Below, piece after piece: positions 12,512 through 14,372 of a stretch of DNA of 45,821 nt. Position 1 is the first letter of the stretch. The number at the start of each line of letters is the position of its first letter. The notes under the pieces were generated by a model. The model did no database searches. It saw only the letters and a program-made list of their open reading frames with translations, and was not told the origin of the DNA. This stretch comes from Gammaproteobacteria bacterium (GTDB lineage Bacteria; Pseudomonadota; Gammaproteobacteria; SG8-11), in the NCBI GenBank assembly GCA_024641505.1, contig JAHECY010000023.1:1-45821 (forward strand), read 5' to 3'. The translations under genes were made by a program, and so were the position numbers.

Positions 12512-13471
12512 ATGGACAGACGCAGTTTTCTTAAGACGGGTTGTTATGGTGTCACCCTGTTTACCACCGCGGGCTTGATTCCGCCCTTGCCACGGCGAGC
12601 TGTCGCGGCGAGTTTGAGCTTTGCAATCACCGCCGAAGCCGTGGTGAGAACGTTGATTGATGGATCGGTGCTGAGCGCATGGCAGTTCACCGGCGGGGTC
12701 AACGGCGCGGGACCGGGTGCCCTGGGTGCGGGCCTGGTGGTGCGCAGCGGTGACATTATCAGTGTTGCGCTTACCAACGTCTTGGCGCAAGCCATTAATG
12801 TCACTATTCCCGGTGTCCTGGAAAACACGCCGGCCTGTCCGCCGGGTGCCACGCAAATTTACCAGTTCACCGCGCCGGCGGCGGGCAGTTACTATGTCTG
12901 CGACGCTCTGCCGGGCGACATCGGTCGAGCCATGGGACTGTTCGCGCCGCTGATCGTAATGCCCGCGGACGGTGGCAACCGTCTGAACGCCGGCGGCGCC
13001 CTGTTCGACAAGCAATATACCCTGGTGCTCCATGAAGCGGACGATCGTTTAAACGCGGCGATCGTCGCCGGCCAGGCCTATGCCATGGCAGACTATGAAC
13101 CAAATTATTTCTTCATCAATGGCCTGAGTTATCCTGATACGTCCGCCCGCGCGGATACCGCAATTGCGATGACGGTCGGCCAGACGATTGCGCTGCGCAT
13201 TATCAATCCTGGACTGATATACAACCCTCTGCACTTTCATGGCTACCATGTGCAAGTGATAAGTCGCAACCGAAGTCTGGAGACGGCCGTGGTCGACAAA
13301 GACACAGTGTCGATGTGTTATTGCCTGTTACCCAAAGTGGCGTGTTTCCTCTGCACAGTCATTGCCTGCCTGCGGGCGTCGGGGTTGCCGGCCTCGACCG
13401 ACGCCAGCACCCGCCCCGGCTCCCGCACCGATCCCTGGCGCCGCACGTACTTTCACCTATTTGGGATTTAA
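12512..13471 (+). CDS. Multicopper oxidase, N-terminal fragment (Tat-exported)
   Basis: As it stands, the first frame encodes about 319 residues. MDRRSFLKTG at the start is a twin-arginine signal. A cupredoxin-like domain at about 40-155 lacks the usual HxHG ligands. A second domain contains NPLHFHGYHVQVI, a type 2/3 copper-ligand motif of the last-domain kind. After about residue 265 the reading turns into unrelated Cys- and Arg-rich sequence to the stop at 13471, which marks the frame change. ATG 12512 is preferred over a TTG at 12506 because it begins the Tat motif directly. Confidence 0.6.
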   Translation: MDRRSFLKTGCYGVTLFTTAGLIPPLPRRAVAASLSFAITAEAVVRTLIDGSVLSAWQFTGGVNGAGPGALGAGLVVRSGDIISVALTNVLAQAINVTIPGVLENTPACPPGATQIYQFTAPAAGSYYVCDALPGDIGRAMGLFAPLIVMPADGGNRLNAGGALFDKQYTLVLHEADDRLNAAIVAGQAYAMADYEPNYFFINGLSYPDTSARADTAIAMTVGQTIALRIINPGLIYNPLHFHGYHVQVISRNRSLETAVVDKDTVSMCYCLLPKVACFLCTVIACLRASGLPASTDASTRPGSRTDPWRRTYFHLFGI

Positions 13472-14372
13472 CAGCGCGGCCTTGGGTGTCTCCATGGCGG
13501 CAGCCCAAACCCTGGCCAACGGCACCAGCTTGCGGGTGTGGTCTTTTGGTGGTGGTTTCAATGGCGACCGGGCGGTTCCGGCGCCGGTGATCGAGTTGAT
13601 CGAGGGTCAATCGGCGGCTATTACCTTGAATTCCATGATGCCCCATAGCATCCATCCCCATGGGTTGGACGTGAACCAGGCGAATGATGGTGTGCCTACA
13701 ACTTCTGGTTTTGTCGGCATGGCCATGCCCATGATGGGTAATTTTGGCAGAGTGGCCGGTTTGCCCAGCCTGGGTTCCTCGTACACCTACAGTTTCGTGG
13801 CGCCCCACGCGGGTACCTATATGTATCACTGTCATGGGGATACCGTATTGCACCAGGAGATGGGCATGGTGGGCACTATCGTCGTGCGTCCTGCCGATGG
13901 CAGTACCGATCGTGTCTGGACCGGCGGGCCACAGTTTTCCCGGGAACATATCTGGCATTTACATACCTTCGACACCACCTGGCATACCCAGACTCTCAGT
14001 GGTGCGGGCACGGTGCGTTATCGCCCTGACGTGTTTATGATCAATGGACGCCAAAGTGTCGCCGCGACCGCTGACAGTGCCACCGCCATCAGAGGCATGG
14101 CAGATGACGTGGTTTTGATACGCCTGGTGAATACCGGGTATCTGCCTGCGGTGGTGTCTCTGGGCGGTTTGACCTTTCAAGTGATTGCCAGTGACGGTCG
14201 TCCATTGCGCGCCACCCCGATGGTCACGCAATGGCAGGTTGCTGCCGGTGAACGCTATGATATCTTGTTGACCCTGACGGCGGGAACTCTCCGTGAGGCC
14301 CAGGTGGATTACTATAATATTCGCGGAACTGCCGTTCTGGGCAGCGCCACTACCATGATCCAGGCCAGCTGA
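13362..14372 (+). CDS. Multicopper oxidase, C-terminal fragment
   Basis: The third frame opens near 13362 but has no credible start of its own (the first ATG in frame is at 13494, inside a domain), which supports its origin as the 3' part of one gene. After a PAPAPAP linker come two cupredoxin domains. The first has SIHPHGLDVNQ and YHCHGDTVLHQEMGM, containing type 2/3 His ligands and the type 1 His-Cys-His...His...Met set. The last domain (from FSREHIWHLH) lacks obvious copper ligands. An HPHG domain after an HFHG/HSHC domain is a permuted order compared with classical laccases. Confidence 0.65.
   Translation: MPACGRRGCRPRPTPAPAPAPAPIPGAARTFTYLGFNSAALGVSMAAAQTLANGTSLRVWSFGGGFNGDRAVPAPVIELIEGQSAAITLNSMMPHSIHPHGLDVNQANDGVPTTSGFVGMAMPMMGNFGRVAGLPSLGSSYTYSFVAPHAGTYMYHCHGDTVLHQEMGMVGTIVVRPADGSTDRVWTGGPQFSREHIWHLHTFDTTWHTQTLSGAGTVRYRPDVFMINGRQSVAATADSATAIRGMADDVVLIRLVNTGYLPAVVSLGGLTFQVIASDGRPLRATPMVTQWQVAAGERYDILLTLTAGTLREAQVDYYNIRGTAVLGSATTMIQAS

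Follow-up and report, generated by a model that had tools for sequence, protein, structure and literature searches.

The coding region at positions 12512-14372 of the window, the whole 45,821-nucleotide stretch of gammaproteobacterial DNA that was analysed, is a damaged copy of two adjacent genes, here named A and B, that have been run together by deletions or gaps. In relatives where both genes are intact, the two products carry complementary copper ligands, and the ligands for a trinuclear cluster (TNC) are absent as a full set from either chain alone. We infer that this intact locus quite probably encodes an obligately heteromeric two-domain multicopper oxidase (MCO).

Direct reading of the frames across this plus-strand region gives the order 2, 1, 3: the ATG at 12512 opens frame 2, which runs to about 13308, LLPVTQSGVFPLHSHCLPA is carried by frame 1, and an open frame 3 spans 13362-14372. 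Pfam recognized multicopper oxidase domains in two of the three pieces, those of frames 2 and 3, and none in that of frame 1. The two frame changes around HSHC described in the sequence-only reading of this DNA are real, and its copper motifs HFHG, HSHC, HPHG and HCH are all present. According to the frames and an alignment with an intact relative, gene A extends from 12512 to a first gap at 13308, and comprises a Tat-type N-terminus (MDRRSFL), a first cupredoxin domain (D1; Pfam Cu-oxidase_3 match at 12698-12964) with the multicopper oxidase fold, and the start of the second domain (D2) with HFHG (13232-13243). The claim that this first cupredoxin lacks ligands holds as well, as scored in the ligand columns of the intact A proteins of relatives and judged by eye in the window. 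The remainder of A D2 lies in frame 1 at 13309-13373, with HSHC at 13354-13365, while the remnant of gene B in frame 3 (13374-14372) contains a Pro-Ala linker, a D1 with the T1 site and half of the trinuclear site, a D2 (Pfam Cu-oxidase match at 13992-14282) that has no copper ligands by the columns of its relatives, and the stop.

Copper sites are named from their motifs, following established knowledge. HFHG and HSH form a T2/T3-only half-site, because the residues NPL precede HFHG, so that there is no T1 His, and HSH is its pair. The T1-bearing half-site of the window consists of HSIHPHG (13644-13664), with a T1 His and a T2/T3 His, paired with HCHxxxxxHxxxGM, here HCHGDTVLHQEMGM (13827-13868), which supplies successively a T3 His, the T1 Cys, a T3 His, the T1 His and the T1 Met. 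Five residues, rather than the four first reported, separate HCH from the T1 His.

An alignment of the DNA with an intact homologue gave the number of missing bases. In a genome of the same genus (UBA6920; locus L024, identical with L009), A and B are two intact adjacent genes. Counted from its ATG, A encodes 313 aa and starts with a twin-arginine signal; B encodes 422 aa, has a Pro-Ala linker and an N-terminus that looks RR/lipobox-like, both signals being assigned by eye. Compared with L024, the window has 22 bases fewer at 13308/13309, where the frame is lost, 296 bases fewer at 13373/13374, where the C-terminal end of A, the DNA between the genes and the N-terminal start of B, including its signal, are missing, and 45 bases fewer, in frame, at 13438/13439 within the Pro-Ala linker. 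With two frame-disrupting gaps, the window pair as written is not intact and cannot make an A-B complex. Near the break there is an 11-nt direct repeat (13317 and 13358); the second gap junction itself carries an inverted repeat of 12 nt with 92% complementarity (13371-13382 and 13398-13409).

The sequence-only reading offered deletions close to the Pro-Ala repeat and an assembly error as alternatives. Both fit the three gaps, and both fit the assembly search, in which the missing bases had no close second copy: the matches were the window itself, other cupredoxin genes (26-39% identity) and weak Pro-Ala similarity. We give about an even chance to a recent real loss, in which two deletions made the pair a pseudogene in the window's lineage: the gaps begin at 13308, 13373 and 13438 and the second takes away the A end and the B signal, dN/dS is slightly raised, and other B-A(-C) sets in the same genome, described below, might make the window pair dispensable. 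The pairwise dN/dS between the window and L024 is about 0.19 for A and about 0.12 for B, with dS near saturation, and it is 0.03-0.08 in two other pairs of relatives. What speaks against a real loss is that invariant sites show no excess change: at sites invariant in the other members, window A, scored on its first piece only from 12515, departs at 6 of 67 and L024 A at 10 of 67, and B departs at 2 of 68 in both the window and L024. On this ground decay by substitutions was rejected, mild relaxation being still compatible with the dN/dS values, and the break would therefore be either recent or an artefact. A sequence or assembly error, in which the living cell has intact A and B and the gaps are artefacts, is given somewhat less than an even chance and would be compatible with the heteromeric enzyme. 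Both frame-breaking gaps fall within 66 bases, yet the invariant sites depart no more than in L024, and the assembly is fragmented into 222 contigs; however, it holds no second version of the missing stretch, and dN/dS exceeds that of the two comparison pairs, though with the saturation just mentioned.

The separation of A from B was surveyed among relatives. The B part has matches at E <= 1e-20 in 12 of 184 genomes, its own included. A scan of genome contigs gave 242 relatives, and since the best 80 were kept, the loci are not a random sample. From 161 ORFs found, 139 were aligned and 22 left out, namely the ORFs of L009-L013, L015, L016 and L020-L023, which were regarded as duplicate or incomplete loci, and the three-domain oxidase of L032. 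Ligand columns were read against a one-gene relative (L047), and classes A and B were defined by a complete half-site, with the state of the other half as the test. The 139 aligned ORFs of these best 80 of 242 relatives comprise 58 B proteins, 52 A proteins, 28 one-gene proteins with both halves (27 Firmicutes records and one from Saprospirales) and one fragment; all eight D1 ligands are present in the 58 B proteins with at most one of the four D2 His, and all four D2 His are present in the 52 A proteins with no more than three of the eight D1 positions, the Cys never among them. Four B proteins (L026, L036, L039 and L040) are truncated before D2, and D1 is missing from the A protein of L091 and partly from that of L032; the domains concerned being absent, ligand loss is unscorable in these. 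Each of A and B has two cupredoxin domains of multicopper oxidase type in Pfam, in agreement with the fold alignment. A chain carrying T1 in D1 and TNC half-sites in both D1 and D2 is found in the 28 one-gene relatives, while the split genes provide this arrangement only as a pair.

In the same best 80 of 242 relatives, A adjoins B on one strand in 52 of the 56 B-bearing loci, in the order A-B in 46 and B-A in six. The four loci having B without A (L025, L038, L040 and L099) all begin at contig ends, as does the fragment, L044. One locus counted as A-B, L026 (200-3002), is in fact B-A-B, and L025 (2-2196) has two tandem B genes at its contig end; both could be relevant to the stoichiometry of the subunits. 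The A and B proteins examined gave no NCBIfam match above a model's cut-off, four pattern-matching stretches on viral contigs encode no relative that would indicate a phage origin, and in 654 plasmid records the best place of each was less than 60% identical, with 28-34% among the 20 matches listed.

Among solved structures, the best sequence relatives of A and B are the type C two-domain MCOs 3g5w from Nitrosomonas europaea and 2zwn, a metagenomic laccase, which resemble the pair in having T1 in D1, TNC half-sites in D1 and D2, and the HCHxxxxxH spacing. Two-domain oxidases are described as trimers in which the TNC is shared between protomers (PMC13151041), and in type C one gene holds both half-sites and forms a homotrimer (PMC13151041, PMC3192119), whereas here the half-sites belong to two gene products. 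The multi-subunit Mnx complex (MnxEFG) is likewise a bacterial multicopper oxidase, but MnxG is described as the operon's sole MCO gene, with partners unlike characterised proteins (PMC5622069), whereas A and B are homologous halves. Heterodimeric fungal laccase-like enzymes also have two different chains; however, the small partner, of unknown function, raises stability and activity (PMC10741624) and is not a copper half-site. Ceruloplasmin and the other six-domain blue proteins are single six-domain chains, whereas here there are two domains per gene and two genes, and six cupredoxin domains in one chain were not found. A heteromeric two-domain oxidase with a split trinuclear site was not found in the open-licence PMC literature, to which the search was confined.

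For structure prediction, A and B of L031 were folded as one chain, the two intervening stops being read as Gly, with an alignment of 37 rows of which 15 were A-B read-throughs. The linked AlphaFold model has a pLDDT of 88.8 and a pTM of 0.88, and its residues 1-636 align by VIA-align with ceruloplasmin chain residues 1-697 (Z 25.7, 4.2 A, 507 residues), which points to four cupredoxin domains in a ring-like order; the Foldseek alignment to ceruloplasmin is looser (TMq about 0.6, rmsd 7.5-8.7 A). Residues 1-697 are presumably ceruloplasmin domains 1-4, and with these limits A-D2 would face B-D1. This contact may owe something to the linker of the one-chain model and to what AlphaFold has learned of ceruloplasmin. 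The B half of the model matches 2zwn at Z 29.1 and 2.0 A. A model in the reverse order B-A (L028) is weak, with a pLDDT of 71, a pTM of 0.67, B D1 largely below 70 and 15 alignment rows including few B; its residues 6-647 align end to end with the Thermus three-domain laccase 2xu9 (Z 25.0, 3.2 A, 379 residues), and, going by the ranges, B-D1 would correspond to laccase D1 and A-D2 to laccase D3, which is once more the contact that bears the copper. That ceruloplasmin is not among the 50 matches listed for the B-A model proves nothing.

Based on these findings, we propose that the T1 copper, which accepts the electrons, would lie in B D1 together with half of the TNC, that A D2 would supply the other half through HxHG and HxH, and that A D1 and B D2 would have kept the cupredoxin fold and lost their copper. 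A-D2 and B-D1 may contact each other like neighbouring protomers in the homotrimeric two-domain enzymes, and O2 would be reduced at this interface. That A and B instead work apart, B as a T1-only electron carrier or with some other partner and A as a copper-free or accessory protein, seems unlikely to us: the T1 site is complete in B alone, but all TNC half-site His are kept in A and B across wide divergence, which a T1-only carrier or an accessory protein would not need, and the adjacency of the two genes in the best 80 of 242 relatives and the joining of the halves in the fold prediction also speak against it. The single multicopper oxidase with permuted domains proposed in the sequence-only reading is hardly credible, since, although in the window A and B overlap and can be read with hardly a break, the intact relatives carry no single open frame with all domains and instead have A and B, at 52 loci, in separate adjacent frames with a stop between, mostly as A-B and sometimes as B-A. 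The window being two genes, nothing is permuted, and the supposed last-domain-type motif preceding a first-domain-type motif is the T2/T3-only half-site of a separate gene followed by the T1-bearing half-site of the next.

The heteromeric enzyme, to which we return, would have arisen through duplication of a one-gene type C ancestor followed by complementary ligand loss, as heuristics and trees suggest. In a FastTree phylogeny of the 132 cores, out of 139, that were long enough, rooted on the Saprospirales one-gene protein, the A clade (48/48, support 0.998) and the B clade (52/52, support 0.987) are each monophyletic; the A+B grouping has a support of 0.86, which becomes 0.29 with the backbone unresolved when the trios described below are added. 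A one-gene Firmicutes group (0.78) takes in the split pair of two Paenibacillus species, and two independent splits, in the proteobacterial-type lineage and in Paenibacillus, are apparently the simplest reading of this tree, with a support that falls to 0.62 with the trios. The Paenibacillus split pairs are in B-A order (L069, 62-2917; L070, 5842-8715). The A protein of L070 has extra domains including a C-terminal cupredoxin, and the one-gene L047 protein also has a C-terminal cupredoxin. Distances within A and within B are correlated (r = 0.91, 46 pairs, 0/2000 permutations), as joint inheritance alone would also produce. Such a heteromer, its trinuclear site divided between two chains, would offer a clear example from nature of how duplication with complementary degeneration can lock two proteins together, apparently on two occasions, and if it is true, annotators count one enzyme as two or three.

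In the best 80 of 242 relatives, a crude pattern test detected a Tat-type motif in 45 of 50 non-Firmicute A proteins, the five without it including those of L032 and L091, which begin at contig ends, and a crude hydrophobic N-terminus cut-off was passed by three of 50 B proteins (L019, L039 and L061); the RR/lipobox-like start of L024 B falls below that cut-off. With Tat signals on A and mostly none on B, B would probably be exported in folded form, bound to A and by means of A's Tat signal. In many members of the A-B family the two chains would thus seem to assemble first and pass through the Tat route afterwards. The neighbours of A-B pairs vary among loci. Copper P-type ATPase or Cus/Czc-type efflux genes, as candidates picked by eye, occur near four of the 17 loci listed (L029, 1277-3715; L094, 6962-11481; L097, 6976-11460; L088, 9629-10903), and we therefore propose, as a guess, copper handling for that part of the family, with Cu(I) as the possible substrate where such genes adjoin.

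The window's genome has further sets of this kind, B-A-C on contigs C181 (L105, 1174-5133) and C22 (L106, 3-11093), a B-A pair on the short contig C11 (L109, 3-2985) and a C fragment on C171 (L107, 1-4662). In such trios, all eight B proteins have the D1 site only, all eight A proteins have HPxHxHG/A and WHSH, the latter recognized by motif and not in the same alignment column, and all eight C proteins have neither motif, one of them being truncated before D2. The trio B has matches at E <= 1e-40 in six of 184 genomes, its own included. The copper-free C of C22 forms the beginning of a protein of 2686 aa, in which bacterial Ig-like, SdrD_B-like and ASH-type domains were recognized.

Sideroxydans lithotrophicus ES-1 is described as having three tandem MCO genes (PMC5566968), and another source reports higher expression of this three-gene cluster on magnetite and describes Slit_1816-1818 as two proteins with MCO motifs and a larger third one without them, with adhesin-like domains (PMC12016527). 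Compared by description, this resembles the B-A-C sets here, with two motif-bearing proteins and a larger motif-free one, but a shared site is not proposed in the accessible part of PMC12016527. By analogy, we propose that Slit_1816-1818 may also be parts of one enzyme, and the split-site idea offers a direct test for this unexplained cupredoxin cluster. Tentatively, at a little under even odds, we extend the proposal to a wide class of bacterial MCOs whose one active site would be shared among two-domain parts, each from its own gene and two or three in number, wherein homotrimeric ancestors would have become obligate heteromers by complementary copper-site loss at least twice, in the proteobacterial-type lineage and in Paenibacillus, and wherein the copper-free trio C, which can be fused to a giant adhesin-like protein, would complete a ceruloplasmin-like ring and anchor the one catalytic site to the cell surface, perhaps to oxidise solid iron minerals. 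The window's genome (G000) also encodes, on the minus strand of contig C111 (L104, 2738-3871), a 378-aa protein with HTIHWHG and HAMHSHG that looks like an ordinary one-gene two-domain oxidase.
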